Assembly: GCF_000003815.2 (NCBI RefSeq)
Contig: NC_049982.1
Location: 16,354,621 to 16,418,620, forward strand
Source: Branchiostoma floridae
Lineage: Eukaryota; Chordata; Leptocardii; Amphioxiformes; Branchiostomatidae
Reading direction: 5' to 3'
Length of the DNA: 64,000 bases
The notes beneath the pieces are model-generated. The model was given only the letters and a program-made list of their open reading frames with translations. It had not been told where the DNA came from and made no database searches. Both the position numbers and the translations under genes were made by a program. Numbering within the stretch: position 1 is the stretch's first letter; each line of letters opens with the position of its first letter. Below are positions 4,800-63,924 of this stretch, piece by piece.

Positions 4800-4842
4800 C
4801 TACGGCATATTTCCTAGTAGTGGTGGGCACCCAGCGCGTCAT
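4800..4842 (-). CDS. First coding exon of a DOCK1/2/5-like Rac/Rho guanine exchange factor (partial)
   Basis: On the minus strand an ATG at 4842 opens 14 codons reading MTRWVPTTTRKYAV and then a first-position G, followed by a canonical GTGAGT donor. The peptide closely matches the remembered start of DOCK1 (MTRWVPT then a KYGV-type run) that leads into the N-terminal SH3 domain. DOCK1/2/5 proteins work with ELMO to load Rac with GTP at the membrane for engulfment, migration and cell fusion. The rest of the gene should lie to the left, outside the window; I found no second exon in 1-4799, so intron 1 would exceed 4.7 kb. A ten-codon upstream ORF lies 40 bases 5'. The exon is tiny, so the call rests on seven identical leading residues plus the splice site. 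Confidence 0.65.
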
Positions 4843-4881
4843 CTTGCGATGTACTTCACGATTTGGAGGCAACCAACGATG

Positions 4882-4911
4882 CTAACTTTCCCAAAACTCC
4901 ACTTCCGCCAT
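4882..4911 (-). promoter_or_regulatory. Upstream ORF in the DOCK-like 5' leader
   Basis: A strong start context, CAACATGGCGGAAG, opens the ten-codon frame MAEVEFWES-stop just 5' of the DOCK-like start. The AACATGGCGG core also fits the YY1 binding consensus (AAnATGGCGGC) found near many animal transcription starts, so this may mark the promoter as much as a translated uORF. Confidence 0.4.
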
Positions 4912-5508
4912 GTTGAATATCTGTGACCACCGCAGAAAAGCATAAAGTGGTATGATGAAATACAATACAATATTGCCTTTCAAAATAACACGTATAACAC
5001 ATATAAAAATTGGTTGAACAAAACGTCTCAATTGTACATTTTCTAGCATGATAAGTCCACATAAGTCATGCTCTACTTCAGAAGATGATATTTAGCTACA
5101 ACGATGGGTAATAGCGTGTTGATGCGCTTGTCGATTCCTGGTCATATGATCCAGGACGACCCCATTATCCAGTGGGAGTGTCAGACTACGGGAACTGATG
5201 GGTCAATTCAATTCATGTCATGTCAGACGTCAGATGTCACCAGGACGGTCCTTTTTTTTTGCCCTTTACAGCTTTTGTAGATTGTTGATTTTGGAAGAGA
5301 AGAAGAGATTATCTTTCATCCACAATATCTTTAGTATTTATTCATTTCTGATTCTGCCATGTTTAAACTTTAAAGTTATTCATTTATTTATAAATGTAGA
5401 ATTGATTGACGCAATAACGTTAACGTTATATGGATGACATCCTCTGGGATTTTTTTTTTATTCGAATGAAACAGACGAAAATTGATACGATCGGATGTCA
5501 TCAATATT

Positions 5509-5638
5509 CTCCAAGCAGAGGTTGACTTGCGGAGATAACTGTAGACGTATAGTGGTGGTCGGGATGTTTTACAGTCTTGCTCCCCTCAGGTGAGCTTGTA
5601 AAATCCCCACCATGCCGCAACCCAACCTCTGCTTGGAG
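5509..5638. mobile_element. 130-bp MITE with 16-bp terminal inverted repeats
   Basis: CTCCAAGCAGAGGTTG at 5509 is mirrored by CAACCTCTGCTTGGAG ending at 5638, and similarity continues a few bases inward. The interior has no coding capacity. A second fragment with AGCAGAGGTTG occurs near 6119, showing that the sequence is dispersed. A clear target-site duplication was not found. Confidence 0.6.
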
Positions 5639-6312: not shown

Positions 6313-6333
6313 ATGGCCTACGTGAGGTCATAG
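6313..6333 (+). promoter_or_regulatory. Upstream ORF in the PLPBP leader
   Basis: ATGGCC opens a six-codon frame MAYVRS-stop, 32 bases before the PLPBP start codon. Whether it lies within the transcript depends on the unmapped transcription start. Confidence 0.3.
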
Positions 6334-6364
6334 AGGTCAGGTCTGACGTTGTGAACATTTGGGT

Positions 6365-9300
6365 ATGCGAAGATTTGCAGCGATGGTCGACAGCGAAGTG
6401 GGCCGTGCTCTGCGCTCTGTTCTCGATCGTGTACAGACTGCGGCTGCTAAACGGCCCGAGGTAAGGTTAAGGAACGCCTGGAAGTGCCGATGTGGCTTGA
6501 TTACCGAGAAGTGGAGACTGGGAGGTCGGGTAGGAAGGACGCCCTCTACACTGTGACCTAGTTCATGTTCTATTTTTGGCGACGCTTCCAGCGAAGCACT
6601 GTACAAACCAGATTTCGTTCGACTTGAAATTATATAAACCTTAACCCTCCTACATATTACATATTACGTGTTGCATTTTGCCCAGTTTGACGTTTATTGT
6701 AAACAACGTTGAGGGTTGTCGCAAATAATGTCCCGTTTAGCTAGTCTTGCACGTCCTTCTTCTAAAAACAACGTTGAGGTCAAGGCGGTTTTAACGTCCT
6801 TGATTTGGTGGCAACTGCTTGTGACACCGGTCGCAATTAGTACAGTTCATCTACCGCAAGTCCTACAGGGATGCTGAGGTTGCAGTAACAAATTACAATG
6901 TACGGGATCATTTTAACAGCCACATGGTTTGAACTTTGAACCTAAGTACTTAGTAAGGAGACATAAACTCCAACACTCAAAGAAGATGACTGCCCCTTCA
7001 TACACAGGTTACATGTAGCACCTAGTCTCTAACAGACTCCATTGGTTGGTAGTCCAAAGTGGGCAAGTAGACAGAAGAGATCATTATGCAGCCATATGTG
7101 TAGCTGGGACCACACTTCAACACATAAAAAAAAAACATATTTTTACTTCTAATACACAGTGTTCTTTTTCTGTGACGTTGGGGCAAGATCCATTAGCGAC
7201 AGGGATAAACAAGTCCACTAGCCCTATTGTCCAGGGCAAGTGAAAGTGCTGTTCGGGCAAGTGCATGTCCTACCCCACTTGTCCGATCGGGCAAGTAAGA
7301 TTTTTCCATTGATTTTAGTGCAATTTTGATATACTTGTTACTTTTTACAGTCATGACATCAAGCAATTGTCTACAGAGAATTCCATTGCTGGAAGTGAAA
7401 ATGCATATACTAGTAACAGTGACATTTGAATTTTGGGCAAGTGAAAAATTGGTTCGGGCAAGTACATTTTTTATGTGCTTGCCCGATAGGACAAGTGGAT
7501 TTTAGAAAACTTGTTCAACCCTGAGCGATAACGTTTTTTGCGTTTCCAGCGCATGAAGATACCTTTTTCTTCCCATTCTTTGCATGTCCCTGCCTTCCCC
7601 GAAGTCTGTCTAATGCGCTGGGGGGTTATAATTAGCCGTCTCAAAACCCCAAAGTACTCCACAACATGACCTATTACAAACATTTATCACTATTCAAACA
7701 TTTGGGCCACCATTTTGAATGGGTCCGGAGATGTTCGGGTACCAGTCCTGGGAATGTTCCGAGCGTCCTGTTTAACTTAGGAAAAATGTGTTTTTCCTTG
7801 CGGGTTTGCCCCAACTTATCATAGGTGTACAGTTTGCAACCAAGGTACCAAACTCCTCTGGCCATCCTTTGGTATATTGTTTCATCTATTTGACCAATTT
7901 CAATTATTTTTACATCAGCCTATGGAGTCTGGTAGAGACTAGGTGGGCTGTTAACCTCTCTTCCCTCCCTCAGCATCTGCCAAAAGTACAGCCTCGTTTG
8001 GTGGCAGTCACCAAGACCAAACCCAAGGAACTGATCCTGTCTGCATATAAAGCTGGTCAGAGGCACTTTGGGGAGAATTATGTGAGTAGATTATGTTTGC
8101 ATGTTATTCAGGTATATGAACCCAATTTCTGTTAGAAATTTCCTGTTTTTTTGGTGAAGGTATCACTTGCCATGGTTATAAAAGACTGGCATTTGTGCCT
8201 TGTGAAAAGTTAGATGCTAAGTATGTAGTAATGATGTTAGCTATATCAAGTATGTGTCCAGTAATTGCTGGTCATCTTTAGTTTTGTCAAGTCATTGATG
8301 GACATATTGGAAAAACTTTAGTTCATATTTCTGCAACTTGTGCTTTCTGTTGAAATGTACCTGGACCTTTATTTGCTTTTTTGTATTCATTCAGACACAC
8401 AGACACAATAAGGTTACTGTTTTGAAGTGGACTTCTGCAAACACTATGCTAAATTTTTGCTTTCTCTGAATCCCTAGGTGCAAGAACTGACAGATAAAGC
8501 ATCAGATCCAGAGGTAAGGTGACATGGGTGCTATTGGTGAAAGCACTGCATCAGTGCATGCATAAAAGTCTACATAGAACCAATTGTCTTAAACTCCAGT
8601 GAGCAGTGTTGTACAACAATCAGCCAATCAAATTAGCCTGTAAGTCCTCTACTGTAACATTCCCTTACCAGGGCTCGAAATTCATTTTTGGGATTAGGTG
8701 CACTGGTGCACCCAGCTTAAAAAAATGGGTGCACCAAAATATTTGTGGGTGCACCGCTTAAATTTAAGTAGAATGTAAAAAGAAAACTAACAACAAAACT
8801 CAGTTACAAGCTATCAAATTCTTAAACAAGTAACATTACAGACATTTTTTATTATTATTAACACTTAGATCTCAAGAATATAATGTATAGTAGTATACTC
8901 TATATTTTTCCATACATAAACCTAAGAAAATATTTGGGTGCACTCTGTGCACCCACTGAAAAAAATTGGGTGCACAGTTTCAATTTTGGGTGCACCTGGG
9001 TGCACATGCACCCAGTATTTCGAGCCCTGCTTACCCAGTACCCATCTCGTGCATATTGAATATTGTATAATTTCAGTATCGTATCAAGCCATTCCAGAAT
9101 ATTGAATCTCATACACTGTATGTGTTACAATTCTTTCAAGATTGTAGGCCAGCTAAATGACATCAGATGGCACTTCATTGGACACCTGCAAAGGAATAAA
9201 GTCAATAAGGTCACTGGTAAGTGTGACAATTTGGTGTGGGCTTGTCTATTCAATTTGCACCTTGACAGATAGGCTGTGAGAAACATTTTTACTCACACTC

Positions 9301-11391
9301 TCTCCTGATCCCCTATTTCAAATATCTCCCCTCCCTTTTTTCACTGTTCCCCTTCCTTCAGTCTTAAAACTTTTATAGCCATAATCAATGATAGTAATAG
9401 TCCTAAGATAGGACTACCAAAAGAAAATATGTAGTAAATAAAAATCACAGTTGTATCCTGAGCAGTTTTTGTATTGTCTATTTTTGGAATACATTAATTT
9501 GCCATCTGAAGCCTGTGAAGTAAAAACTGACAAGTCCAATAGATGATCATTGACATCTAAAGCTTTAACGATTAGTTTTTCATTGCACATGTACAAAGAA
9601 TAGAGGATCTTAAGTTGAATGTTAATTTCTACACCACATGTCACCAAATATCTGTACTCCATAGGTATACCAAACCTTTATATGGTGGAAACTGTTGACT
9701 CAGAGAAGCTAGCTACGGCCATCAATGCATCCTGGGAAAAATTGGGCAGAACAGACAGGTTGAAAGTCATGATCCAAGTCAACACCAGCAGGGAAGAACG
9801 TAATAAGTCACTTTTTCATTCTTTGTCTTTAGTTCTCCTTGATTAACGCAGTCCTTTTTGTAACTTTGAGGATATGCTATGTTGATTGAAACTAAGTGCA
9901 AGTAGATATGATAACATATTCAACATTCTTTTGTACTGTTGTTTCATTTTCAATTTTTCAGGATTCCAAGAAGTTGACAAAACCTTGTATGGCTCTTCAA
10001 ATATCACCACTAAGTGCTGCAGAGTACAAAGTCTTGCATAAACTAGTAATCTTCCTGTAAAATCATGATACTGTTCAATGTGAAGCATTGCAGACAAGTT
10101 AAAGTTTTTTTCACTTTGCAGAAAAACATGGTACATCCCCTGAGAAGGTGTGTGACCTGTATAAGCATGTTGTGGAGAATTGTCCACACCTGCAAGCCGT
10201 GGGGATCATGACTATAGGTGTGTACGACTATGACCTGCGCAACGGACCAAACCCAGACTTCCAGGTCAGTACTAATCAGTTATGTAGATCATTACGATGG
10301 TCAGTTGAAAATATGTCAGGGCTCGAAATACCACCTGCATATGCAGGTTAGTGCAGGTAAAATTGAATCTGTGCAGGCATTTCTGATATCTACCTGCACC
10401 TAACCTGCACTGGTCCATGTACTGGGTTTTATACATAAATTTCCTTTGATTTAGATGTATAGGGATTGTTATTAGCTGCATTGACTGTGACCACCTATTA
10501 AGTATAAAAGAAAAAAAATAGCAATGGTTCCTAAACAATTTTAGTATGATTCATACTTCCTAAACTGAGAGTGGTGCAGGTAAAATTTGTCTGGTGCAGG
10601 TAATTTCTAATGTTACCTGCACCAGTGCAGGTATGCAGAAACAAGGATTTTGAGCTGTGTGTGTATATTACATGTTGACAGGTGCTCCTGGAGTGTAGAA
10701 CAAATATATGCCAGACCTTCAACCTCCAACCTGAAGATGTGGAACTGAGCATGGGCATGTCTACAGACTTTGAACATGCTGTAAGTTGTCTTCTTCCTTG
10801 CCTTATTTTATCTATTTATTTTCTTATAACACTAATGTACTCTGAAAACTTTTGGGGACTTTGTAACTTTGATTTTATCATTATCTAGTACATGTAGTTG
10901 CAATAAAACATTTTCCAAACAGTACGTCACAATTGATAACAAAGTCTTGTGTTTAGTTTTATCTATAATTAGACAGAATTATTAGATAATTGTCATTGTA
11001 AATCCTCTGAAAAGGTGTAGTAGAAGTTTAACTGTCATTCCTAAGACTATTCCTTATGGTACATGTATGACCTTCAGACAAGATATTGTTTCACTCATGA
11101 GGATACCACATTGAACTGTGTACATGTTTTGATTGGTAGTAGTCATGCAATAACATCGTACTATTGCCTAATACCTTTTTAAATCTTTTATGTCAGATTG
11201 AAGTGGGCAGTACAAATATCAGAGTTGGCAGCACCATTTTTGGAGCAAGACAATATCCAGGCTCTAAACCTCCTCCGAAGACCACACCCAACAACCCAAA
11301 TGCCACACCTAACGACCAGCAGCAGCAGACAACTACTGACAAAGTGGAGAGCACCAGACAAAAATTAGATGCTGTAAATGTGAACTCATAA
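6365..11391 (+). CDS. PLPBP: Pyridoxal phosphate homeostasis protein (PLPBP/PROSC, YggS family)
   Basis: Eight exons: 6365-6460, 7974-8081, 8478-8513, 9141-9216, 9665-9799, 10122-10264, 10682-10780, 11197-11391, giving 295 aa against about 275 in human. All junctions are GT-AG and phases agree. The protein binds pyridoxal 5'-phosphate without a known enzymatic reaction and buffers vitamin B6 in the cytosol and mitochondria. Family signatures are visible: LVAVTKTKP with the PLP Schiff-base lysine at about K46, [36 protein letters not shown] and the phosphate-binding [15 protein letters not shown] near the end. The start at 6365 ([13 protein letters not shown]) was chosen because it mirrors the human N-terminus; M7 at 6383 is possible. 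After the conserved domain there is a family-atypical tail of about 45 residues rich in P, T, N and Q. Introns 1, 3 and 6 each hold a MITE. A polyadenylation signal lies at 11507. Confidence 0.95.
7200..7523. mobile_element. hAT-like MITE with GGGCAAGT subterminal repeats
   Basis: Ends are CAGGGATAAACAAGT and ACTTGTTCAACCCTG, flanked by a perfect 5-bp duplication AGCGA (7195-7199 and 7524-7528). Just inside both ends sit several copies of GGGCAAGT or its complement. No coding capacity. It lies in PLPBP intron 1. CAGGG-type ends with a 5-bp duplication fit the hAT5 group of non-autonomous elements; the superfamily is inferred. Confidence 0.75.
8669..9029. mobile_element. hAT-like MITE with GGGTGCACC subterminal repeats
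   Basis: Ends are CAGGGCTCGAAAT and ATTTCGAGCCCTG, a perfect 13-bp inverted repeat, flanked by the 5-bp duplication CTTAC (8664-8668 and 9030-9034). About eight copies of the palindromic core GGTGCACC or TGGGTGCAC cluster within 100 bp of each end. It lies in PLPBP intron 3. Same architecture as the elements at 7200 and 10317 but a different internal motif. Confidence 0.8.
10317..10659. mobile_element. hAT-like MITE with TGCAGGT subterminal repeats
   Basis: The left end CAGGGCTCGAAAT is identical to that of the element at 8669; the right end ATTTTGAGCTGTG is a decayed match. TGCAGGT or ACCTGCA occurs about ten times in the two flanks. The flanking 5-mers TATGT and TGTGT differ by one base. 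Located in PLPBP intron 6. Confidence 0.7.
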
Positions 11392-11512: not shown

Positions 11513-11579
11513 AGGCTTTTAGTGCAAATGCATTTCATTGGTGATTTTTTTCAAGGGACCATCGCTTCATTCCTGTTCT

Positions 11580-11819: not shown

Positions 11820-13310
11820 TTAGTGTGTAATTCAGCACACGGGACAGGGTCTAATGTCTTGGTGTGTCATTCAGAAATGGGCTCATGCCTTGTTATGTGT
11901 CATTCAGGCCTGCAAGTCTTGTTGACTGTCATTTAAGGACAGGTCTGCATGTCTTGCTGATGTGTCATTAGGGCCTCATGTCTTGCTGGTGTCTCAGGGA
12001 ACTAGGGGCACCAGGCTTGTTGTTTTCTTCATGAGCAGAGTCACACATCTTATTGATGTGTCATTCAGCACTAGGAAGAGTTACACGTCTTGTTAATGTG
12101 TTTTGGCACAACTTTTGCACGAGAAGAGCCACCAGTCTTGTTGGTGTCTCATTCAGCACCAAGGACAGAGACACAAGTCTTGTTGTGTTGATGTGTTATT
12201 CAGCACGAGGAACATTGCCACCAGTCTTGTTTGTCATTCAGGGGCACCAGTCATGTTGATGTGTCATTCAGCACCAAGGACAGGGGCATCAGTTTTCTCG
12301 ATTTGTCATTCAGCACTAAGGACAGAGGCACTTGTCAGTCAGGGACAGGGGCACCAGTATTAGTGTATAATTTATCACCAGGAAAAGGAACCTATATCAA
12401 ACTCATTTGTGTGAGTGTATTTCTCAATGAGTGCCAGTGTTGTTTCTGCTGCCAAGTTTATACATGGTTCTGACAGAAGGGAGACTAAGCCAGAATATAT
12501 TCCACTTAGCTGTATTTATCAGCAGTGTAAAATTTGCCTTAAAAATGTCAACTGGTACAGACATTGATTTTTTTATGTACCCCATTCAAATATGTACACC
12601 ACTGCATATGATACAATATGGACTGCACAGATATTAGCTATATTGTGAGTAAGAAAAAACCTTGTAATAGAATAAACAAGAAACGTGAAGTACACCACAT
12701 GGCTTAACATGGTGGAAAGACATTACATTGAAACAAGTAACGCTGCTGGAGTTTATGATACAAATTATTTGGTAATGAAGATACATGTTTTGTGATGTGG
12801 TATGATATCTATTTAACAAATTTTCCCGTGCAGCCATGTCACCCTTAGACTTTGTTGAAGTCATTAATTACTTTGTCATATTGCTCAACAAGTTTGAATT
12901 GAAAATCCTGGTGGTGCAGATGGTGTATGATACTAAGAATACAATGTACTACATTTACATGTCCAGTAGCATGATGTCAAGAATTTCCTCTACATAAGTC
13001 CACTTTATGTGTGATATGAAGCATATTACTCTCACATGCCAACATAGGTGTATAAACTACAACTGTTGTATAGTATTAGATATAGTGCTAGGTTGGACAC
13101 ACCCCTACAGTAAGTGTAACAGGAAGTGGACAAGTCTTCAGACTTGTACAGGAACTGGACACTCCCACCTCCACAAGTCCTACTAGAGACCACCTCATGT
13201 GTAAGTTTCTCCACACACCAGTCCTACTCAGTGTTACATGATACAGTCTGTCATAGATGGTTCACATGAGATAATCCCACTCAAACTACACCAGACCACA
13301 CAGTACAGTT
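11820..13310. repeat. Duplicated segment, copy 1 (minisatellite plus unique flank)
   Basis: The first part (about 11820-12370) is a degenerate minisatellite with units such as GTGTCATTCAGCACCAAGGA and CAGGGGCACCAGTCTTGTTG. The rest (about 12400-13310) is non-repetitive but matches 23030-23930 closely over some 900 bases, for example TGGTTCTGACAGAAGGGAGA, TGTACACCACTGCATA and CCACACACCAGTCCTACTCA. The two copies are in direct orientation on either side of the LRR receptor gene. No coding exon is recognised. Confidence 0.85.
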
Positions 13311-13938
13311 CCACCACAGCTGGGTTAGTTCCAGTTCAGTACAAGACCCCATCACACAGACAGGAGACACAAGTCCCTGACAGACTAGTCCACCCTCCCA
13401 CCACTGCAACAACCTGACATGGTTGTGGGGTGAAGTGAGGATGGGGCCCGACATCCCGATTGGCAGACCGGGTGCAGAGCAGCCATCTCTCACTGCACGG
13501 CGCAAACATATCAGATCGATGGTGCAGTGGGAGAGGTTGAAAAGTCTGTAAGAGACACTACACTATAAAACTCACCAGGTGTATGAAGTTTGGTCCCTAG
13601 AGTATCTAGAATCTGGGATTCCAGAGCATTACGCCAGGGGGGCGACTTTTCGGTGCATGTTGATTTGGTGGGGCCGCACAAGGGGGTGTACTGGTGTACA
13701 TATACGGGTTCATATACATATACCGCTCTTTCACCTTACCCTGTGAGAAGACACTATTGTCTTATGAAGTTTCAGATAGATATAGTCAACAAATTGTTTT
13801 CAAGGTTGATTTCTTTTCATATATATGATTTGTTTCAAGAATAATTCAAAGCCCTGCTTAGCACCTTATATTTACACGATTTATTCATCTATGTAGTTAT
13901 GCACTATCTTGACGACAATGATAAAATGTATGTATACG
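13311..13938. other. Non-coding between duplicated segment and LRR receptor 3' end
   Basis: No recognisable gene. It includes the presumed 3' UTR of the minus-strand LRR receptor. Short open frames at 13281-13505 (-) and 13590-13844 (+) lack similarity to anything I know. Confidence 0.4.
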
Positions 13939-16900
13939 CTACATAACTTTTGAAAGCTCAAGATAAGGATTACTGATTCTGCCGGCTCCTTGTTCTGTCA
14001 GCTGCAGGGAGTCAGGGTTATGGTACGGGTTTTCCGGAGTTGAATGTTGATCGTCGTTGATTATGTTGTAAGGAGGATCGTTTGTGATATCACCCTCAGC
14101 TGAGTCGGCAGGCGCTTCCTGCGGTGAACACGACTGGGTTAGCGGTCAGCTGCACATGGTTAACGTTGGCTCGGGATCAGAATGGGAACATCAGAGACTA
14201 CACTTACTCTATGAAAAAGGAAACGGCAGTAAAAAGATAACAATTGAAATACCTGTTGTTGCTGTTGATCTGGCCTGCGTTCCACGTGTTCGGCAGATGA
14301 GTGGCCTTTCCTCTTTAGGCACAAGACGGCCGCCATTACCAGGATGATGAGCAACAGGGGCACTCCCACGGCCAGGCCCACAATTGCTGCTTGTGGCAAG
14401 CCCCCCGTGATGAAGTGCTCACAGTGGTCTACTTCTGGTACCACGAGCTTAATATTATTACAGAAAACAGTCACGCAGGTTATGTAGGACGTGTCAGGGA
14501 GAAGTTCCAGTATGGGGTAAGAACGGCTGGTCGAATGAACCTGTGGTGTTGTCTTCCACGACTTCTCTTTGATAGGTTTGTACTGAATTGCAAATCCTGA
14601 CAGCAGATCTGGACTACCTCCGTATGTCCACGCGACCTCAGCACTAGAGTCTTTTACGTTCTGTACCTCAACGTCTCTTGGGCCAATACAGGTTTCTGTT
14701 TGGCCTACTGTAGAGGACGGCGCGGGTGTTTCTGACGACTGTGGATTTGCCACAGAGGGAGAACCTTGGGAAGGAGTTGTCATTGGCGGTGTTGGGGAGG
14801 GTGTTGGGCTGTGTAAAAAATAGAAAAGTACATTAACTATTCATAAAGACGGATAAGCAAGCACAAATAGTCATAGTAATTCAAATGTCAATTTAAGTTC
14901 TGTTCAGGTCATTCATTGGTGTCATGCCGTTCAAGACATTGCGTAGATTGGCGATATTGCTACTTGGGTCATGATGAGATGTATGGTATTACGTAATCTT
15001 TACTGTCCTGGGCGCAATTTAGTCAGACCCTGAGGAAATCATTGTTACAGTACATTATTTCAAAAATGTGTTACTTCTAATGCCACGGAGCTTGTTGCAG
15101 GGACAAGATGCTGAAACAGAAACTAATGGAAGTGTTGCTTAGCATCCCGTAATACGAGGAACAATAGTCATTTCCAGGGTCGAAGACCAAGGCAGTTTTT
15201 TTTCGACCTTTATTTTTACTGATATCTTTAGCTTTATCAAAAGAAGCTAACGTGTTAACTGTGTTGCATTTACCAGATCTCCACCGCGCCTTGTGATGCG
15301 GGTGGAACAGTTGTTATCGGGCACGTCCCCCCTACGTCCTCTTCGCCTAGGGTTTCCAGAGAACGTCTTCTCAAGGACACTGGAAGGAAGCAGGTTGGAG
15401 AACTTGGGTTGACGTTCACGGCTGCAAGAACAAGGACAGATAAGGTACACTGTGAGTTTGTGTGCCCGATATGCGTTAAACCAATATCGATTACGGTTAC
15501 GTACAATACGTGTAGGTTTATGAACCGTACGGGGTTTGTTTCCAGACATTCTAATTGGTATGTTTTATGTATCTCTCCACATATCACATACATAGGGGCA
15601 GATGATAAAAGCTTACCAGTTTTGTCAATCCATTTCCCGAGATCGAGCACGTCACAGTCGCAGGTGAACCTTGTTCCCATGGTTACCGTTCGGAGGCACG
15701 GGAGATGCCGAAACACTCCTGAAAACAAGGAACTTCATTTCACAATTTCCTTCTAAAGAATTATTTTTTCATACAATGTCGGGCATCATCAATATCAAAT
15801 GATTCACTAATTATTGATGCCTAGACACTAAGCATCATAGATACGGAGGTGGATAACGGAGTCTTCTGACAACATAGACATATATAAAGACAATGTATAC
15901 ATACGCGGTGACCAGGTCGTCACTCTGTCAATGTTCAGACTAAGCAGAGACGTCAGGTTACCGAATGCGTCTGAAGCGACTGACGAAATGCTTTGAAAAT
16001 TATTCCTGTTAAAGGAAATCAAAGGAAAACAGAAAACCCCTACTGTTAAAACCTTTTTACGATCACAAAGTAATAATAGACGCCGTTCAATGGCATTGTG
16101 TCTTTTACAGTTTGCTTCCGTATGAAATGAAGTGAGTTGCATGTACGATGCGAAATTTATGTATTGCTCATACGACAATAATGTCAAGCCCTCATCATTG
16201 TGATGACAATACCGGCAATACCAAACCACAAATAAGTAGTTCAAATGACTAATGTACTTATATCAACACGTGAAGGAAACCTACCACCTGACCGTTATGT
16301 GGCAAGACTGGCATGAAAATACTGTCGTTGCGATTTTTCTCAATTACACTTAATGGCTAGTAATATTGACTATTGATATTGACGTGGCGAATACCTGGAC
16401 AGATCTAGAGTTCTGAGAGCCGGCAATGTCGCGAAAGCAAATGGATGAATCTTCTGAATCCCAGAATTCGACAGGCGCAAGTAAGTCAGGTTGGGGAGTG
16501 GAAGGTGATGTCCTGTCGCTGCAGATGGAGACAATGACAGCAGGAATATGTTAGATACATGAAGCCTTTCGACCAAATCATCGGCAAGTCTACAATCTCA
16601 GGAAAAGTTGTGCTGTAAAACAGACTGCACTGGGACTGGACCTGAAAGCTCGACGTTGCTGTTGCGATATATTCTGCCGAGCGGCAGCATTTTCACTAAA
16701 AACAGATTATGATGCATAGTCCCGGAAATATCACGAGATTGGCGCCAATGAGTGTGTGGTTTGACAGACTGACAATGCAACTCCCTTACCTGATCGGGGA
16801 AGCGTTGTGATGTCTCCCAAGCGGATTTCCGTCAACGACTGGTCATTGTTGAATATGGTCAGTGACTCCAAGGAAACGGGCAGAGCTGGCACAGACGTCA

Positions 16901-19900
16901 ACCTGGAACCTGACAACGCGATCTGCGAAGGGGGACAAAGGAGATAAGATCAGGATGCGCTGCTTATCTTTGCATCGTGTCTATTTTATCTATTCTTGCA
17001 CTCTAAATAGAATTACTTATTATGCCTTCGTTAGGACCATAACTGTAGCTTTGATTGTTTAGGGGGTTCTTTTGTAGACTTTTGGGACTAGAGAACTCGA
17101 AAGCTTTCTGAGCATTGTATTTGAGCACTGTTGACGTGGGTTGAAACAGACTGTCGATGATAGTGTTGGGACTGAGGATGTATTGGTAATTCTGTTTCAA
17201 GTCACGTGGAGAGGTTTGTCAGAATGTATCTTTCAAAACGTTTGGATTCGGTTCTGATATGTAAAAATAACAGCAAGACAGTCGCTGATAGTTGCACGAT
17301 GAAATGTTGCTTGTGAATAAATGAATGGATGAAATTTATTGCATTTGTACATGGTACAATGTAAGACAAGAATGATAAAGCAATTGATTCAATAATCGTC
17401 TGTGTGATGTACGTCTTCGTGACATTCATGTTCTTGTCTAAAACAATTGCAACTTAGGTAGTATTTCTCAACTGAAAACTATGGTGGCACGAATCTGCCT
17501 TCATATTCGTTACAACAAAGACAAATGGATTTGATTTTCTAATTTTCTAGGTGACTTACACTTTTTAAGCTTTGTAGGGGTGACAGCACAGCGTCACTGA
17601 TGCTCACGAGTGGGAGGCCGAGTAGGCCTAAGTGAGCGAGATTCGGAAGGTGCCAGAACGTGTCGTCAGGAAAACTTTGTATAGGGTTACTACCTCCCAT
17701 GGCTATCTGTTCCACAGACACCAGACCTGTAGGGACATCGTGTACACTGTCAAACCTTACGTATACATTGCACTCTGTCAGTCTGTGGTGGAAGTTGTTG
17801 TTTGCTTTAAAACTTATTCCTTCCCGACCTAGATAGTTCGTGTCGTCAGGTACAATAAGGCATGTAATTGTATCGTCTCCAATTGACCTATAGGTCATCC
17901 ATGCGGGACACTCCCTGACCCTGAGCCCTTTATCAACCTCGATTGCATGTTCGCTCCTTTAAAAACATGAAAAGCCAAGGCAAGGTACACGTAGGTAAGC
18001 AGCAGACTAATTTATGTGCGACATACGAACTTTGACCCGACAGCGGTGAAATGTCTAGGCTGGGGTAAAACAGGTATGTCGTTGGTGCCGTAGGGTAAAA
18101 GCTTGTCTGCCTCACATGTATATATATACCACTGGTACTGCCAACTGGTTCTACCACATGCAAATGTACCATCGTAAACAAAGCTAGATTTGACCTTTTC
18201 AAGTCATATCACGCATTCCATCAACCACAGAACACAGAGCAAGACCAACCAATTTTTCTACACATAGTTGGTCCGTTCCTTTCTGACCACTGGTTTGACA
18301 TATAATGTAATTACGTTAGCAACATGTAGAGAATGTGTACTATTATATTCTCAGATTGCTTTTCACGGTAAGAAATGTCATGGTGAACTGCACGGAATTA
18401 TAATTGAGAGCTCTTGTGTCATTACCCTTAACTTTTCAAAGCATGTGCTGCTTACCTTCAAATGTTGCAGCTGAAACACTAGTCAGAAGGTTCCCGAATA
18501 TTTCCAAGAAAAGAAGGTTGGCAAGGTTGGCAAACGAACCGTTCTCCACACTTGTGATCCTGTTAGCCTGTAGGAGGTTAAACAGACGACGCGAGATCTC
18601 TTGGACTTCAACATCAACAACATAATACCGCAAAATCCTGACATGAACTACGTACACTGCATGCTAACCCAGGATGCTATGAAGTACCATGACAGAGAAA
18701 TTACGTTGCATGATAAGGAATAAAGCTGGAAAGTAATAAAAAGTACAGAGAATCCCAATCAAAGCAATTCATATGCGTCGTTTCTCAGATCACTTATCTC
18801 TATTAATGATATAAGAAATTGCTGTTATGTGCTGATAAAATGGACTCACATGTAGATGAAGATACTTCAGTTTTGTCAGCCTGGCGAAATCCTCCCTCCG
18901 AACAGCCGCGAGACTGTTCTCAGCCAGGTCCAGCTCCTGGGAGGACCAGGATGGATTTGCTTTATCTTCGAATTCTTTTATGACTTTACTTTTTACTTAT
19001 TAGTTTAAATGCGCTCTGATGGGAGGCAAGATTTTTCAAAAAATGAAACAAGCTCGGAGTTTACTCTAGTTTATTGGGGTTCAACTCACCCATAGGTCCG
19101 TAGACGTGAATGTCGATGCCGACATGTTCTGTAGTATATTGTTCCTCAGGGTCAATGACTGCAGCTTGACCAGGTCACCAAACGCTTCATCTTCGATAGA
19201 GCTGATGTTGTTCCTGTCTAGGAGCAATGTGGTAAGATTGTACAGTCCAGAGAACGCCGTCTGTGTGATTGTGGAGATGTCATTAGATGACAGGTCCAGA
19301 AACTCCAGGTTTGGGGTTCCGATGAAGGACATGCCAGGGAGATTCTGGATCGTGTTATCACTCAAAGTCAGACGAGTTAAGGCTGGTATCCCCAGGAAGG
19401 TTCCACTGTTCAACACGCCGATATGATTTGAATGCAGGTACAGAACACGCAGCTCCTTGAGATGACTGAAGCTCCCATCTTCTATTGTTGAGATGTTATT
19501 AGACGAGAGGTTGAGCTCCGTAAGAAGCGAGACTTCTGTGAACGTCCCGATGCCGATGGAGGTGAGCTTGTTGTCCTGTAAGTCGAGCATCTTCAGGCTG
19601 CCAACGAAGGAATTACTTCCAAACGCAGTTATTGTTTCGATGACATTTCTATTTAGAACAAGTCTCACAAGTTGGCTCAGCCCATCGAAAGCCGAAGCGG
19701 GTACAGTAGAGATCGCGTTCCCTCCTAACCGGAGAACCTGAAGGTTGGGCCGGCGACTGAACGGGGATCCGGGGCGTGCTATGCTAGTGATGGAGTTATC
19801 TTCCAGGTTCAGTTCCAGCAGGTTGGGAAGCGCTGGATCACGTCTCACCTCTGAAATCTGATTATCATTCAACAGAAAAATTTCTGTTGAAGAAGGTATG

Positions 19901-20055
19901 AGTTGATTCCGCGGGAACTGCGTAAGGATTCCGTGACTGCAGTCGGCGGTGGTACCAAAACATCGGCACTGGGGTGCGCAGTCAAGGGCAGCCACAACTC
20001 CGGTCAGGACAGCGAGCAGAGGTACTGATAGCCATAACGTCCTTGTGTGGGCCAT
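13939..20055 (-). CDS. Leucine-rich repeat, fibronectin III single-pass membrane receptor
   Basis: Eleven exons in transcript order: 20055-19090, 18936-18850, 18567-18456, 17927-17560, 16922-16790, 16518-16395, 16005-15905, 15718-15617, 15421-15274, 14808-14253, 14118-13939; phases all agree and give 958 aa. Order: signal peptide (about 1-27), cysteine-rich LRR N-cap (CAPQCRCFG), about 14 LRRs in residues 55-388, an irregular stretch near 389-460, more LRRs to about 640, LRR C-cap (CDC at 650-652), a P/T/S-rich linker, one fibronectin III domain (755-848), a membrane helix (854-878) and an 80-residue tail. The architecture resembles FLRT or LRRN neuronal adhesion proteins, but I cannot assign an orthologue. 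The tail has tyrosines at about 916, 931 and 951 in YNII, YHNP and YLEL contexts and a Q5 run, and no TIR domain. The ATG at 20055 was chosen because the signal peptide starts there. Confidence 0.9.
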
Positions 20056-51000: not shown

Positions 51001-51639
51001 GAAGTTTAGTTGGAACATCTGGCTTTCACCACAGTGCTCTACTATGTGTTGTTACTAATTCATGGCAGTTGATTGTAACCTGTTAATGGTAATCATATTT
51101 TCTGCAAACAGAAAATTGAACGAGTGGTGTTTGTTGGGAACTTCTTGCGAGTGAACCCCATCTCCATGAAGCTTCTGGCAGATGCCATGGACTTCTGGTC
51201 AAGTGGACAACTCAAGGCACTCTTTCTGGAGCATGAGGTGAGGTTTGGACCATTCATCTTTTCAGAATACAGTATGTGCATGTTTTTGGGTGTAAAAATA
51301 TTATGATATCATGATTTTTAAAGCCCAGGTATATGTATATGTGGTCTTAGCTGCTATCATTCATCCCTGTACAAGTCTGCTTTTGTAAGTATGAGATCAT
51401 CATATTTGTGCACTGGTATTGTTAAGTACGCAAAAATGTGTATGTGTATCTTCTAAAATACGCACTAGTAGCAGTTGTGACGACATGCAGGAAATTCTGA
51501 TATGACCATTGCAGATCTACAATGTGTATCAGGGAAACAAAACAGTATCTGTTGTTTGTTTCAGGGTTACTTTGGAGCTGTAGGTGCATTACTGCAACTC
51601 ACAAAGACATCTCCATTTGATGTACCTATTGACCAATGA
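48026..51639 (+). CDS. PANK: Pantothenate kinase (PANK1/2/3 type)
   Basis: Seven exons: 48026-48107, 49254-49606, 49977-50230, 50445-50621, 50843-50966, 51112-51237, 51565-51639; phases agree, 396 aa (human PANK3 370). The enzyme phosphorylates pantothenate with ATP, the first and rate-limiting step of coenzyme A synthesis, and is inhibited by acyl-CoA. Seen: the nucleotide-binding [14 protein letters not shown] (33-46), [14 protein letters not shown] with the probable catalytic glutamate at about E140, [64 protein letters not shown] and the C-terminal [12 protein letters not shown]. The first exon encodes a divergent 27-residue basic N-terminus ([13 protein letters not shown]) and follows a GCC-ATGG context, so this is the chosen start; alternative first exons, common in vertebrate PANK1, cannot be excluded. 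One gene here probably stands before the vertebrate PANK1/2/3 duplications. Confidence 0.95.
48895..49085 (+). mobile_element. tRNA-derived SINE in PANK intron 1
   Basis: A-box-like GTGTGGTGTAATGGC and a decayed B-box GGATTTAAATCC (48942-48953) are spaced as in a tRNA. The body includes CCAATCTTGTGTCCTTGGAA, AGGCACTTAATTATT, CACTCAGGTGGAAATGAGCA and CAAATAGGACATTAAAT. It is the same family as 11580 and 45735, in sense orientation to the gene. Confidence 0.7.
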
Positions 51640-54945: not shown

Positions 54946-57900
54946 TCAGATCATTTTAATGGCTGAATCTGAAGTCTTTACTTGTATCAGAGTATCTTGG
55001 TCCACACTGTAGCTACTGAGAACACTGTCTGCCAGTGGTGTGATGGCTACGTGGGGCATGTCACAGCAAGGTTTGCTGAGGGCAGGATAGTACTGTCGGT
55101 ATATGGTGTACGCCATCAGCAGTCCCATGGTAGATCCCACAGCAACGTCTGAAATACAACAGACACAAACTTTAGGTTTGTTGTACCAATTATCAGCAAC
55201 TTTGCACACTGGGTATCATTTACCAGTACCTGACAATCACCTTAATCTTTACTGGGGACAAAATTAATGCTTACAGAGTTCTGTCAACAATAAAAACAAA
55301 TGTGCAGAACAAGTTGTAATGGTTGGAAAAGTCCCTAAATGACATACAGACAATGTAATGTATCTGGAAAATATAAAATGAAATCATTATCATGCTAATT
55401 TAACTACAAATACATCATACTTTGGACCCCACAAAAGGTTATTGAATACAGCACCATGTACATTAATAATACCATTCAACTATGACAACACAAACATGCA
55501 AAAAGAAAAAATATGCCCCTCTTGGACCTCTGACAGAATATCCAAGAAGTTAATCTAAACCAGGAGCTATGCCAGCCTTTTTGTCCCACAAATACTTTCT
55601 TTGGCAGGCTAACAGATCAAGTTCTGGGTACAATTTGTTCCATACTTGGTCACAGACTACAACAAGCAAGAGAACAACACAGCCTTTTCAAAATGGTAGT
55701 GTTACTTTTGCTGTGTGTTGTCCTTCCTCTGACTTGTGGGCAACAAGAGGAAAGCTCTGGACCAGCAGACAGGTTTGTGTGCAGCCCTGTCATCAACATA
55801 CCGAAGCAGACTTGCAGTGGCCATGATGACAACTCTGAGAGTCTGGATACCTGCCTAAATACCATAGAAGACTTGGAACGCCATCTTGATAAGGAGAAAA
55901 AGAGAATTGCTGACTTGGAGCAGCGTTTTGCGTCCCTGGAAGGTCAACAATTGAAGGCCAAGCTGGGAACTGCTGCTAATCCAGGACTGTCATGCAAAGA
56001 AATAAAGGACACTGTAGACCAAGCACAAGATGGACTGTACCATCTTCGTAGCCAAGAAGGGATTGTGTACCAGACCTACTGCGACATGACAACTGCTGAT
56101 GGTGGGTGGACTCTTGTGTCCAGCGTGCATGAGAATGACATATATGGGAAATGTACCACAGGGGACCGCTGGTCTTCAACCCGGGGAAGCACCACCAACT
56201 ACCCTGAGGGAGATGGAAACTGGGCTAACTTCTACACATTTGGTTCAGTTCAATTGGCAACTTATGATGACCTAAAGAACCCTGGTTACTTCAGCATCAA
56301 TGCCTCTGACGTGATGCTGTGGCATGTGCCCAACAACACCCCGCTGTTCCAGTACAAGTCTGCAGCCTACCTGAGGTATTACACGACTGATGGGTTCCTT
56401 CAGCAGTACGGTGGCAGTCTATACTCCCTCTTCAAGGATCATTTTCCAATTGTCTACAATGGTGGGACAGGGAATGGACCAGCAATTCCCATCACCTGGG
56501 ACAATGGGAATGACGACCTGCTTAAGTCACTCCTGGCTCCTAATGTGCTCTCTGAGGCAACTCCTGGCTTTGTACACTTCTGTGTCTTCAACAATGAAAA
56601 AGCCCCCCATGCCGTGTGTCCGGGTCTTAAGTATAACGGAGGTAATGTTGAGCATGCGTGCATCGGAGGAGCAGCATACTGGGCAGAGCTAGCCCCTCGT
56701 CAGTGTGGAGACTTTGCAGGCAAGGATTGGAGCGGCTATGGAACACACACTGGCTGGAGCAGCAGTCTCCTGGAACTGGAGTCAGCCATTCTGTTCTTCT
56801 ATCGCTAGAATCAAATGTGTGCTAGCAGTAGAACAAAGACAGCTGATGCAGTTCCAATATCAATAAGACAAGACTATGCCTAATATCTTCAGTGGGTTTT
56901 AAGCAAATGTCTAGTAAAAGGAAATGTCTAGTAAAAGTGTCAACTAGGGGTGGGTACGGGTACTGAAATTCAATATAACATGACAGTCTCTGACCTTGCC
57001 AGTGATGTCTGTAGTCAGAGGTTCGAGACAAGGCAATCATAGTGGCACCAAGCAGGGGCAAGCCTGCAAGAAGAAGTCTCCAAGACTGGCCACGCCCCTT
57101 GCCCTGGAAGCAGTGCAGTTTTCCAGCTAGGTACAGAGAAGCAAATGCCAGTCCTGTGAAGGAAACTGAGAAACAACGAAAATGTTGGTTACTTATTTTG
57201 ACTAATTCTACAGTCACATGTGGTTATGTACGTTGAAAGCCGTAACCTAGCCAGGGCTCTAGCCAGCGTCCGTAATTCCATCATTTGACAGAATTTGGCT
57301 GCATACAACAGAAGAATTTTAAGACCATTCCATCAATCTTGCAGACAAACATTTTTACAGATATATCCCAATTTAAATAAACCATGCCTTAGAACCAGCC
57401 TAGAAACTGAACATTGGCCAGAGCTCTGTCATAATACAAACAAGCACTTTTGACAAAAGCTATCATTTTGACAGCACAGTTGTTATGGAAAAGTTGGTTG
57501 GTAAGCCTTTCTTGAGGCCATTAGCAAGATGTTGCTGTCAATAGAAATTTTCTGTCAAAATTTGCAGGTATAAATTTGTTAGGAACAAATCAGAGCATAC
57601 CTTCCATCTTTTAATAATCTTGTGAAAAACAACTCTTGATCTGTCAACCTTAACCCTAACCCTGACGGAGATCCTATAAGATGGCGCAAAAAATACTTCC
57701 TTATTAGTAATTACATTTCCGAGCAAGACTAATTTCCTCTGCAAGATTAATTATTGAATAGTGGTTAAAAAAGGAAAAGAAAAAGGTTTCCTTGGGCTGA
57801 CTAGGACAGCATGCTTGTAGATATCTAGCTCAGTGCACATGTGCTGATATGAAAACTAAAATATTACCTGATCCAACCTGATGCTTACATATATACAACC

Positions 57901-59238
57901 AACCAAAGTTAAAATATGGAATAAAACTTTATTAAAAGCCAGAGTCAGATTAGAACCTACATGAGGAATGTCCACTGGGAAAACTTTTTCTGCCCTCAAT
58001 AATGGTGTCAGGGTCTCCGGTACATTTCATATCTTTACTCCACTTTCCATCAGGAAAACAACGGGAGAAGAAATCCGGTCTGGGTCTGGACAGAGAAAAC
58101 ATGAGATGAAGTTAGACATTTAATATAACATAGGATAAAGCTTAAAAGAATTTACTATTATTGTTAACAGAATAAAGGTTTTTGCAATGCAACAAATGTT
58201 TGTCAAACTACATTTTGAAAATTGTATTAAGGTATGATAAAAGAAGCTAGTGCCATAATCCATTACTCAAATGTGTGGCTACAGAAGGAAAGGAACACAG
58301 TAGTTTGAGAACATATTGTCCATTCTCTTGTTCATTGTCTATTTTCTGTACTGCTGTGTCTGACTCTCAAAAATGATGTTTGCTAGTAGTGATGATGCTA
58401 TGATAGACATACCTGCCATACATGAGTTTAACTGTGTTGGTAACAACCCCATTCAGCACCAAGGCCAGGGTTACAGCTGAAATCACAAAATATATTGATT
58501 TGGTGTCAAAGGTTAGATATTCCAGTTTCTTTGGATCATGGCAATAAGATTCAAGTTTCAAAAGGTTATGAATAACTGCAGATGAAAATAAAATACTCAC
58601 CTAGAATTCCTTGGAATGCTTCTATCTTGTCTCGTTTGACAGTGGAATAGACAATAACCACCATTAGTGGTGCTGATATTGCTATTGCCTGTAATGTAAA
58701 GGGAACAACTCTTTAGTTCATGGACAACAAAGTACAATTTAGTTTGTCTGAATTCATTTGCCAAGTAATGAGCTAAGAAACTAAAATCACTGAACCAATT
58801 AAGTTATGTTGCCTTTGAAACAATGAATGTACAAAAAACGTTATTTGAAAAATACTCCTATAACACTGTTATTGGACAGAAGTTTGCTGCCTATGACAAA
58901 AAGAATATTCAAGACTATTTTGTCAACCTTTGAACAAAAATTAGCGAGTAAACATGTAACGTTAAATATGTCAAAATTTGAATAAATTGACAGAAATATT
59001 TACAAAAAGTTGGCCAGAATGTTAGGCCAGTTGGTCTCCATCAGATCAGCCATGAGACAAGTTCATAAAGGGCAGAAGCATCTGAACTTCCTTTAACTTC
59101 TGGCGTAATTGTAATGTTGATCAACTCACAAACATGACAGTGCTTGGCACAGCATCATGCTGGATGTGCGGGTACTTGTACAGCCACCTCTCCTCTGGCT
59201 GGATCTCACGAATAAAGGGAACCATGTCTTCTGTGATC
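54946..59238 (-). CDS. PLPP5: Phospholipid phosphatase 4/5-type (PAP2 family), 5' exon missing
   Basis: Six exons found in transcript order: 59238-59130, 58688-58601, 58476-58413, 58085-57961, 57165-56995, 55148-54946. Phases agree (760 coding bases) and the stop is at 54946. The three lipid phosphatase motifs are intact: [28 protein letters not shown] and [15 protein letters not shown]. Membrane helices lie between them. The family dephosphorylates phosphatidic acid, diacylglycerol pyrophosphate and related lipids in cellular membranes. The first recognised residues, [20 protein letters not shown], align just after the first membrane helix of human PLPP4/PLPP5. One upstream exon ending in phase 2 is therefore missing and probably lies near or in the gap at 60087-60186. 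The last intron houses an intelectin gene on the other strand. PLPP4 and PLPP5 are vertebrate duplicates, so the symbol is approximate. Confidence 0.93.
55693..56808 (+). CDS. ITLN: Intelectin, secreted glycan-binding lectin (intronless, nested)
   Basis: A single 371-codon frame. Signal peptide ([16 protein letters not shown]), then a charged coiled coil (about 52-92, [19 protein letters not shown]), then the fibrinogen-like start [16 protein letters not shown] and the intelectin-specific fold: [63 protein letters not shown] and the C-terminal FFYR. Intelectins bind exocyclic 1,2-diols of microbial sugars through calcium. By alignment with human ITLN1 the calcium ligands H263 and E274 correspond to H321 and E332. 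The two aromatic wall residues W288 and Y297 are W346 and W355 here. The gene lies in the final intron of the PLPP gene, antisense to it. Vertebrate intelectins have introns, so this copy may be a retrogene. A hydrophobic leader and clean start context support the ATG. Confidence 0.95.
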   Translation: MVVLLLLCVVLPLTCGQQEESSGPADRFVCSPVINIPKQTCSGHDDNSESLDTCLNTIEDLERHLDKEKKRIADLEQRFASLEGQQLKAKLGTAANPGLSCKEIKDTVDQAQDGLYHLRSQEGIVYQTYCDMTTADGGWTLVSSVHENDIYGKCTTGDRWSSTRGSTTNYPEGDGNWANFYTFGSVQLATYDDLKNPGYFSINASDVMLWHVPNNTPLFQYKSAAYLRYYTTDGFLQQYGGSLYSLFKDHFPIVYNGGTGNGPAIPITWDNGNDDLLKSLLAPNVLSEATPGFVHFCVFNNEKAPHAVCPGLKYNGGNVEHACIGGAAYWAELAPRQCGDFAGKDWSGYGTHTGWSSSLLELESAILFFYR

Positions 59239-60086: not shown

Positions 60087-60186
60087 NNNNNNNNNNNNNN
60101 NNNNNNNNNNNNNNNNNNNNNNNNNNNNNNNNNNNNNNNNNNNNNNNNNNNNNNNNNNNNNNNNNNNNNNNNNNNNNNNNNNNNNN
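60087..60186. other. Assembly gap (100 N)
   Basis: Placeholder of 100 Ns following a poly-A run, between the PLPP and WDR11 starts. The missing first PLPP exon may be here. Confidence 0.99.
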
Positions 60187-60488
60187 GTACCTGCGTCAAT
60201 AATTTACCATTTACTAGTAGCTCAGCTGTCAGTCTTTTATTGGGGTGGGGAGGGGGGCTACCATAGCCTCTCCGAGAGTCTGCGTTTTCCCAGAAAACCA
60301 AATGATGTCAACTCTGACTTTATTGCATAGCCGATGCAACAACGTAGACGTAGATAATGCAACAACAAAACTTCTCAGTGACAGACGTTAAATTGTACTT
60401 TCCTGTTGTATTTCTGTCAGCCGGCTTCATACGTGTCAAATTTTCCTTCCGAACCGCATTTTCCTTCCCGTCATGCACTGTAAACAAC

Positions 60489-60509
60489 ATGGCTGACTTA
60501 GGATCTTAG
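60489..60509 (+). promoter_or_regulatory. Upstream ORF in the WDR11 leader
   Basis: CAACATGGCTGAC opens the six-codon frame MADLGS-stop, 107 bases before the WDR11 ATG. The context matches those upstream of HPS1 and the DOCK-like gene. Confidence 0.4.
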
Positions 60510-60615
60510 TTGAAAACTCGGCCGGTGTACGTCGGAAAATTCCCTCATTTATGCGGTTTGCTCGAAATCTTTGCATCTAAACACATCACCGATAGCAGCG
60601 AGCTAATTGTAGAGC

Positions 60616-63600
60616 ATGAAGACGCTACAGATGGCCCTGACAGGGGCCCTGCACCACCAAAACAAAGGGGCTTCCGACTGGTAAGAGATACGCCTTCGTC
60701 ATCAGTCATTCGTCTAGTCACATGATAATTCATCCGAGTTTAAATTAGTTTTTGCACACTCTTACTTATGGGCCCACGTCTATAAAATCATGACCATTCC
60801 TGTCAAGTAACGACGAATGTGCATGGTTGAATAGTTGGTCATAACTTTAAAGTCACTGCTTCACTGCTGAATTCTAAGTAGAATTTGATATAACTGCATA
60901 TATATCGATGTGTTGAAACAGGCTAGTATGATAATTTTTAACGTCACCGTCTTCTGATCTTCCGCCCCTCCCATTGATCTAAGCTTCTTCATCAACAAGT
61001 CGAGTATTGTTAATCAATGTCATATATACGTAACACTGTATTATTCATGCTTTTACTTGTCAACATGTAAAAATATGCACAATGACAAGTTTGTCTACCT
61101 GGTTCATTGTTCAGAAAACCATGTCAGCTATTATAGTATCAACGTTATATATCGTTAGGTACAGTTCATGAATGTCCTTGTTCAAATGGTATTATTTTAG
61201 GGGATGGCCGGGCCTGCTGGCGTATGGCTGCCAGAACTTTGTTGTAGTGGTGGATACTCGTACTGTGCAGGTTGGTATAGAACAGCATGCAGAACAGCAA
61301 TAGCTCAACTTTTAAATCATGAGTTTGGATCACAAGTTGTAAGTCTCTTGTGTGCAGGGTACAAATGTATGTCTGAAGGAAACTGCATTTTAAACAGATT
61401 GAAAATTGTTAACTGTGCTAGCCTAAGGCCAGACCAGTTTAATCAAATGGTTCTCCAAATCTTCCGCTCCTATTTTTCCCAAATTGAAACATTACTTTTT
61501 CCTGTTATAACGTTAACGTTATAGTGTTAACTAAAAGGTGGGAAAATTATGATTGCATAAGTATACTGTTGTTTTTCAGTTTTTGTCTGCCAACCTTTTC
61601 ACCTTCAATATTGATGTTTTTTAATGAAGGTCATACGTGTATGCTTAAAAACTGTACTTTTAATAAATAATTTTTAGCAAATAGGTACACCTACTATACA
61701 GTGATACTGTCAGGAGAAGATGGTTGTCTGCCATAGAATGTTTGTTTGCTTATTTTCAAGCTGAAAACGTACTATATAGCTAAAAGCAAGTAAAACTACC
61801 ATTCTTTATATGTTAGCCCTTATTTTCACTCGTTCAAGACATTACAGTATGCAGTTTTCCCCCTGTTGCTCCAAATGAGGGTCTGCATGGGGGGGGCCTT
61901 GGTAACGCTTAACGGTGAATTCAGGAGGTCCGGTAACGCTTAACGGTAAATTCAGGAGGCCCGGTAACGCTTAACGGTAAATTCAGAAGGAGTTACAACG
62001 CATAACACTTAAGTAACATTGGCCTGCATTCCTATTCATACAGCGCTAGAGTAGTTATATCAATGGGTGAAAATATCCGTTTAATGACATTGTGAGAAGC
62101 AAAAGGTGCCCAGAACCCGGAGGAATGACATGTCCATGACATCTGTAAATTGACGGAGGCAGATCTAGAGTTCCCGGCCAGTCACAGAGACGACGGTAGC
62201 AAATTACTTATGGAGGGATTGAACTATTGTTTCAGCACATGGAGCGCCAAAGGCGCGACGCATCCCAAGGGGGTCCGGGGGTATGCTTCCCGGGAAAATT
62301 TTAAAATCAAGACCCTCTTAAATGCTTTTTCCTGCATTTTTCGGCAAATTTTGCCGACCGACTAAGCTACAGTAGGTTGATTTTAACATTTTCATCAAAT
62401 TACACATGGTTATAGCTTTGGCCCCAGAGCCCCCGACATATTTTACCATTTCGATTCGAGCTCGGAAGGCACGAGACGTTGCAATATAAGTCCGGGGAAA
62501 TTTTAAAATCTGGACCGTCTGAAACGCCATTTACTGCCTTTTGAAGGACAGATTTTGCTGTGAGACGAAACTAAATTAGATTTTATTTGAGAGAAAAGAT
62601 TTCTTTGTGCGAAAACCCACGCCCCTAACATATTTTCACCATGTCGTCGTAAGCGCCAAGGGCGCAAGCCGTCGCAAGAGAGGTCCGGAGAAACCTCATT
62701 TTCTGCATTCTAGGAGTACTTTTTGCCCGAAACTAAGCTTGACACTGAAATCTGTATGAGTGATAAAGTTTTTGAAGGCAACGCTTCCACAACATATTTT
62801 ACCCTGTCCAGAGACGAAGGCCGGGAGGCTCGGAGAAATTTTTAAATATGGACCCTTTGAAACGCCATTTCCTGCATTCTCAGGGGTTCTATCTGGCATT
62901 AGACTTCGTGTGTATAACGGGTTACGAAGAATTTCTTGGTAACGCTTAACGGTGAATTCGGGATAACAAAGAGCGATTAACGTTGAATTAAAACGACCAA
63001 TAACGCTTCACGATGAATATACCGATAACGATTAACGTTGAATTAGAGCAGGTCGGTAACGATTAACGGTGAATTAAAATGGCTCGTAACGCTTAACGGA
63101 AAGGCATGCAGACCCTCCCAAATGCTTTTCTAGAAAAATCTGAGAACCAACACAGCAACAAATTAAATTGGTGTGACCTATTACATCACTAAGTCTTCCT
63201 TACTTACTGTAGGTCCCTATGCATTGTATATTGTCAATACACTTGTAAGCTGTCAAAGACTCAAACCCTAGCTCTTTATCCACACCTCCTCCCTACCTCT
63301 ATCAATTGGCCCCCAACCAAGTCCTGGACAGTGACAAAGTGATGATAAGAAAGCCAAAGCAAAAAGAAACTGTAGATACCTTATAAAATTACAGAAAGAT
63401 CAGTGTTTGCAACTTAATGCATTAACGTTACCGATTTCAGTTCATGGTAACGGAGCAAAATCTTTGATACATGTAACTTATATTGTTATTATAAAGAATA
63501 TTTACAGTAGCTGTAACCTCATTTTGCAGGTCATTCAGACCCTTGACAGACACAAGACCAATGTTGTCAAGGTAAGAGCAATGAGTTTATAGTAAGTCTG

Positions 63601-63924
63601 AAATCTTCTTTGTTTACAAAGAAATCCCTGATTTATGCTGACCTTTCTCGCTCCTTTGTATGCTGTTACTTAAAATGTACATGTTTTTGTTTTTGATCTG
63701 TAAAATAAAGCATGTAAACATTGATTTTGTGGCTCTTTAATGCAGACTTGTTTGTTACAACATTTGATAGGTAAAGTGGGCACGTGAGAACTACCACCAT
63801 GACCTGAACCTCCCATACACTCTGCGACTAGCCTCGGCTGACTCTCATGGCAGGATTGTGGTATGGGATGTCAGCCAGGGGCTCATACGTGCAGACTTCT
63901 ATGATGGGACCAAACCTGTTCAGG
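60616..63924 (+). CDS. WDR11: WD repeat-containing protein 11, first four exons (partial)
   Basis: Exons 60616-60680, 61201-61270, 63530-63571 and 63771-63924; phases agree and the last ends in phase 1, continuing beyond the window. The 110 residues match the human WDR11 N-terminus: LTGALHHQNKGASDWGWPGL, LAYGCQNFVVVVDTRTVQ, LDRHKTNVVKVKWARENYHH and LRLASADSHGRIVVWDVSQG, the first WD blades. WDR11 scaffolds a complex with FAM91A1 that captures golgin-bearing vesicles at the trans-Golgi network, and it affects ciliogenesis and Hedgehog signalling. An in-frame TAG six bases upstream of the ATG fixes the start at 60616, giving a shorter N-terminus than human. Intron 2 holds a 1.2-kb transposon. 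Confidence 0.93.
61876..63118. mobile_element. 1.24-kb non-autonomous element with AACGCTTAACGG repeat arrays
   Basis: The outer ends GAGGGTCTGCATG (61878) and CATGCAGACCCTC (about 63104-63116) are inverted repeats. Next to the left end stand three tandem units of GGTAACGCTTAACGGTGAATTCAGGA type. Next to the right end stand six more diverged units (AACGATTAACG, AACGCTTCACG and so on), all in the same orientation. The centre (62260-62930) has three or four diverged units of about 200 bp around AAATTTTAAAATCTGGACC and GAAACGCCATTTCCTGCATT. No transposase frame. Lies in WDR11 intron 2. Confidence 0.7.

Follow-up and report, generated by a model that had tools for sequence, protein, structure and literature searches.

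A 64-kb amphioxus window with six linked gene families and its probable relation to the vertebrate FGFR/GnRH paralogon

Gene content of the window

The 64,000-nucleotide stretch of Branchiostoma floridae contig NC_049982.1 analyzed here (the window, positions 16,354,621 to 16,418,620) carries members of six gene families that have human members on the chromosome arms of the FGFR paralogon. All six are linked within about 59 kb, with DOCK counted from one exon and human positions taken partly from papers. Gene content was rebuilt from six-frame readings of the window, in which exon pieces were located with their flanking bases, and families were assigned using Pfam and comparison with the sequences of solved structures. 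From left to right, the order is a DOCK1/5-like exon (-), PLPBP (+), a leucine-rich-repeat (LRR) receptor (-), a TMEM8-like gene (-), HPS1 (+), PANK (+), PLPP (-) with an intelectin gene (+) inside it, and WDR11 (+). Members of the six families are given below.

4800..4842, minus strand: DOCK1/5-like first coding exon, MTRWVPTTTRKYAV and the first base of the codon after it, followed by a GTGAGT donor
6383..11268, plus strand: PLPBP (PLP homeostasis protein), seven exon pieces; Ala_racemase_N 2.7e-13; yeast and bacterial homologues
35513..37866, plus strand: HPS1, four identified exon pieces; HPS1 chain 8zwc 1.3e-21; Fuz_longin_1 and Fuz_longin_2
48026..51603, plus strand: pantothenate kinase, putatively of pre-duplication PANK1/2/3 type; PANK1/2/3 best 2.5e-190; first exon (48026-48112) tentative
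55072..59237, minus strand: PLPP4/5-type phospholipid phosphatase, six exon pieces; PAP2 1.5e-25; last intron found 55149-56994
61202..63923, plus strand: WDR11, three 5' exon pieces, running past the window end; WDR11 chain 7.4e-33; Beta-prop_WDR11_1st 1e-07

Exons were joined by hand, and the junction residues of the query peptides are approximate, above all in the TMEM8-like gene; family assignments are unaffected. The same holds for the PLPBP query peptide, which was 1 residue off the window (V for I), and for the PLPP queries used against Pfam and solved structures, which contained three wrong exon junctions. A codon-based coding score for exon definition was dropped as too noisy.

The preliminary description of this DNA had named the same six families. 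Five are firm as families (PLPBP, HPS1, PANK, PLPP and the 5' part of WDR11), while DOCK, represented by one 43-base exon, is weaker. PLPBP matched PLP homeostasis proteins of yeast and bacteria with solved structures (best 7.4e-28). HPS1 probably continues to about 42.2 kb, where its later exons were read by eye only. Among solved-structure chains, PLPP matched phospholipid phosphatases 1-3 (best 2.1e-15); PLPP4 and PLPP5 were not among the five chains matched, and the PLPP4/5 subtype, taken from identities to provisional human sequences, is therefore tentative.

The DOCK exon runs from ATG to GTAG and is followed by GTGAGT, a good splice donor. Its peptide, MTRWVPTTTRKYAV, aligns with the N terminus of DOCK1 (MTRWVPTKREEKYGV) and of DOCK5 (MARWIPTKRQ-KYGV). 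In the window the extended peptide pattern is seen once, and 0 of 100 mononucleotide shuffles of the window contained its 7-residue core. Because of the N-terminal match and the absence of the core from the shuffles, the peptide was accepted as DOCK1/5-like. The SH3 motif WY[RK]G was absent from all six frames of the whole window, and [LV]S[LF].[IV]GD from the minus strand up to 9 kb, so that the SH3-motif search found no further DOCK exon in the window, including the 4.8 kb to its left edge. Such an absence is expected if the first DOCK intron is long, and it leaves this exon as the sole support for DOCK. Searched against Pfam in its three forward frames, the interval 1-9999 yielded a single sub-threshold match of no use; the DOCK exon lies on the opposite strand. 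The exon is too short to be placed relative to the vertebrate duplicates. One Dock1/5 and one Tmem8a/b/c are listed for amphioxus in a table of PMC8805411.

PANK and PLPP compared with their human duplicates

The main PANK exon pieces span 49256-51603 (+). Over 356 sites the window PANK is 76.4, 75.0 and 71.6% identical to human PANK1, PANK2 and PANK3, respectively, and the three human proteins are 81.2-84.3% identical to one another. In an unrooted comparison (no outgroup) that assumes similar rates, 1939 of 2000 bootstraps had the largest distance among the human proteins below the smallest distance from any of them to the window protein. By distance the gene lies outside the human PANK1/2/3 duplicates, which supports the view that it behaves as a pre-duplication gene, as judged from these alignments.

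For PLPP, identity was 61.0% to PLPP4 and 59.2% to PLPP5 over 213 positions, with provisional human sequences. PLPP4 and PLPP5 are 67.1% identical, and the human pair was closest in 1922 of 2000 bootstraps (provisional human sequences, no outgroup). The outgroup-free distances of PANK, and likewise those of PLPP, are in the direction expected if the window's genes branch outside the vertebrate duplicates.

Nested intelectin, repeat-flanked receptor and other features

The features lying outside the six families are as follows.

12455..13311, plus strand: direct repeat copy 1, on one side of the LRR receptor gene; 81% alike to copy 2 across 905 aligned positions
13942..20067, minus strand: LRR receptor with fn3 and a transmembrane segment, outside the paralogon set; Pfam LRR_8 1.3e-57, fn3 1.1e-07; both ends approximate
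23067..23930, plus strand: direct repeat copy 2, on the other side of the LRR receptor gene; 81% alike to copy 1 across 905 aligned positions
26711..28303, minus strand: TMEM8-like gene, multipass-domain part; DUF3522 1e-48; upstream exons to about 32.6 kb by eye only
55693..56808, plus strand: intelectin, one uninterrupted open reading frame; Intelectin-1 1.7e-101; inside the last PLPP intron found

The PLPP exons on either side of the intelectin open reading frame have matching splice phases, with an aspartate codon split G|AC, and intelectin is thus nested antiparallel in that intron. This nesting is a new detail that fits a later arrival of intelectin without proving it.

The LRR, fn3 and transmembrane pieces appear to form one gene, which lies between direct repeats 10.6 kb apart. 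The repeat-flanked arrangement is also new and fits a later arrival, again without proof; tandem duplication with later loss would leave similar repeats. A second receptor copy near the second repeat was considered and rejected: one LRR piece and the fn3 piece, used as tblastn queries, brought up no other significant copy within the window, the weak matches starting at E 0.05. Minisatellites related to the direct repeats occur at about 12.0-12.3 and 22.25-22.99 kb.

The TMEM8-like gene, the LRR receptor and intelectin had been set apart as misfits due to insertion or loss. The nested position of intelectin and the repeats around the LRR gene both fit insertion, but no such sign was seen at the TMEM8-like gene, for which no special search was made.

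An open frame with a transmembrane-like stretch (24253-24465, minus strand) lies between the second direct repeat and the TMEM8-like gene. Two pairs of long inverted repeats, each enclosing a short loop and resembling miniature inverted-repeat transposable elements, are present at 21334-21533/21683-21894 (88%) and 25259-25359/25384-25484 (96%). A short dispersed repeat, possibly a mobile element, has several copies in both orientations that are 88-93% alike (43103-43278, 43720-43842, 59391-59560 and 59566-59703). Two runs of exactly 100 N, at 43388-43487 and 60087-60186, are probably assembly gaps. A tRNA scan and an Rfam scan of the window gave 0 matches.

Relation to the FGFR and GnRH regions of vertebrates

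Ten of the 11 human genes of these families lie on chromosomes 4, 5, 8 and 10, the exception being PANK2 at 20p13. The human map positions given in the preliminary description agree with general background, and some of them appear in papers. The FGFR paralogon is assigned to human chromosomes 4, 5, 8 and 10 (PMC6585022), and the FGFR quartet to 4p16, 5q35, 8p and 10q26 (PMC2655272). Of the GnRH loci, GnRH1 has been reported to carry DOCK5, GnRH2 to carry PANK2 and PTPRA, and GnRH3 to carry DOCK1, PTPRE and EBF3, with an origin of these genes proposed in two rounds of genome duplication (2R; PMC6135963). On human chromosome 5 the TLX3 region holds DOCK2 together with TLX3 and FGF18 (PMC2446394). 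In the literature around this gene set we found no paper in which the entire set is called a paralogon, which is no proof of absence.

The GnRH loci tie the DOCK and PANK families together independently, and the PANK2 region (20p13) is thereby brought into the quartet. We infer that the GnRH and FGFR quartets are the same, made up of 4p16 and 20p13, 5q, 8p and 10q, with 20p13 probably belonging to it. The initial label, a 10q/8p/5q (FGFR-type) paralogon, fits in that the gene content agrees with the FGFR/GnRH paralogon, but it omitted 4p16 and also 20p13, whose PANK2 stands at the GnRH2 locus.

It is very likely that the window is the unduplicated amphioxus counterpart of the FGFR/GnRH paralogon, the form in which vertebrates retain an ancestral linkage group. 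The homology would be chromosome-wide and the vertebrate copies would stem from whole-genome duplication: the window's chromosome would descend, without such duplication, from the linkage group of human 4p16 and 20p13, 5q, 8p and 10q, and two genome doublings in early vertebrates would have copied the ancestral chromosome. Differing losses on the copies would have left DOCK1/2/5, PANK1/2/3 and PLPP4/5 as duplicates, with PLPBP, HPS1 and WDR11 as single survivors. The last three are single genes in human, with no known duplicates, and bear on linkage only. Of the six families, only DOCK, PANK and PLPP are known to have human duplicates. Linkage would be shared at chromosome scale and local order mostly reshuffled, with PLPP-WDR11 possibly kept. 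A chromosome-level study of amphioxus inferred the genome duplications and matched ancestral linkage groups to whole amphioxus chromosomes or large segments, with linkage kept and order largely scrambled (PMC7269912). Linkage like that in the window is therefore to be expected in amphioxus; many windows would then look alike, and tight spacing need not be ancestral.

Several points weigh against this interpretation. The authors of PMC6585022 reject a 2R origin for such paralogons, the FGFR one included, and favor small-scale events. The DOCK assignment is the weak point, as it is predicted from 14 residues. At 9, 5 and 3 sites the window PANK groups with PANK1, PANK2 and PANK3, respectively, which may reflect unequal rates, and the PANK and PLPP comparisons were both made without a rooting outgroup. 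Two of the eight families counted below, TMEM8 and intelectin, are misfits, and the LRR gene stands outside that count.

The six genes could instead have been close neighbors already in the chordate ancestor and been split after duplication. We regard such a conserved block as improbable. PLPBP and PLPP5 do lie within about 0.5 Mb of each other in human, but PANK1, HPS1 and DOCK1 are megabases apart on human 10q, and PLPP and WDR11, which are divergent in the window, run in the same direction in human. A further point in favor of the block is that PLPP adjoins WDR11 in the window as PLPP4 does in dog, where a chromosome 28 interval lists SEC23IP, PLPP4, WDR11 and FGFR2 (PMC9897549). No other adjacency is shown, and PLPP beside WDR11 is the only pair that may resemble a kept neighborhood. 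Against the largely scrambled order of the published comparison (PMC7269912), the description of a tightly linked ancestral block was too strong. A narrower proposal, possible but less likely than not, is that PLPP-WDR11 microsynteny predates the vertebrate duplications, lies beside FGFR in vertebrates and may be maintained by regulatory elements belonging to a developmental gene close by. In that case the window would show the block in its unduplicated state, with the nested intelectin and the repeat-flanked LRR receptor as later invaders.

It is very improbable that unrelated genes came together by chance and were only afterwards taken for a paralogon. The gene set was chosen after the genes had been seen, with TMEM8, intelectin and the LRR gene set aside, but the GnRH loci provide an independent link between DOCK and PANK (PMC6135963), and at least 6 of 8 families on human chromosomes 4, 5, 8 and 10 gave p of about 2.7e-4, which a 17-fold correction for linkage groups raises to about 0.005. 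In this count TMEM8 and intelectin were entered as misses and the LRR gene was left out; families were treated as independent, and the map positions and gene shares used are approximate. The linkage of the families exceeds chance.

With the window taken as an unduplicated counterpart of the FGFR/GnRH paralogon, it offers a compact worked example of one region mapping onto several vertebrate arms, leaves the accepted picture unchanged, and speaks for including 20p13 (PANK2, GnRH2) in the FGFR quartet. Compared with the FGFR paralogon of human chromosomes 4, 5, 8 and 10, human DOCK, PANK, PLPP, PLPBP, HPS1 and WDR11 members lie on the same chromosomes, and the difference is PANK2 at 20p13, outside the four-chromosome definition. 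The GnRH loci of the vertebrate 2R share DOCK5, PANK2 and DOCK1, at GnRH1, GnRH2 and GnRH3; they differ in that no GnRH gene was identified in the window, though none was searched for, and in that amphioxus linkage is not treated in the portions of PMC6135963 drawn on here. The chordate linkage groups of PMC7269912 are defined at chromosome scale, and the portions used here name none of the window's genes; they agree with the window in that vertebrate paralogous chromosomes have their unduplicated counterparts in amphioxus chromosomes or in large segments of these. The paralogon has long been published, and the window is a good but ordinary example of the published whole-chromosome amphioxus pattern.

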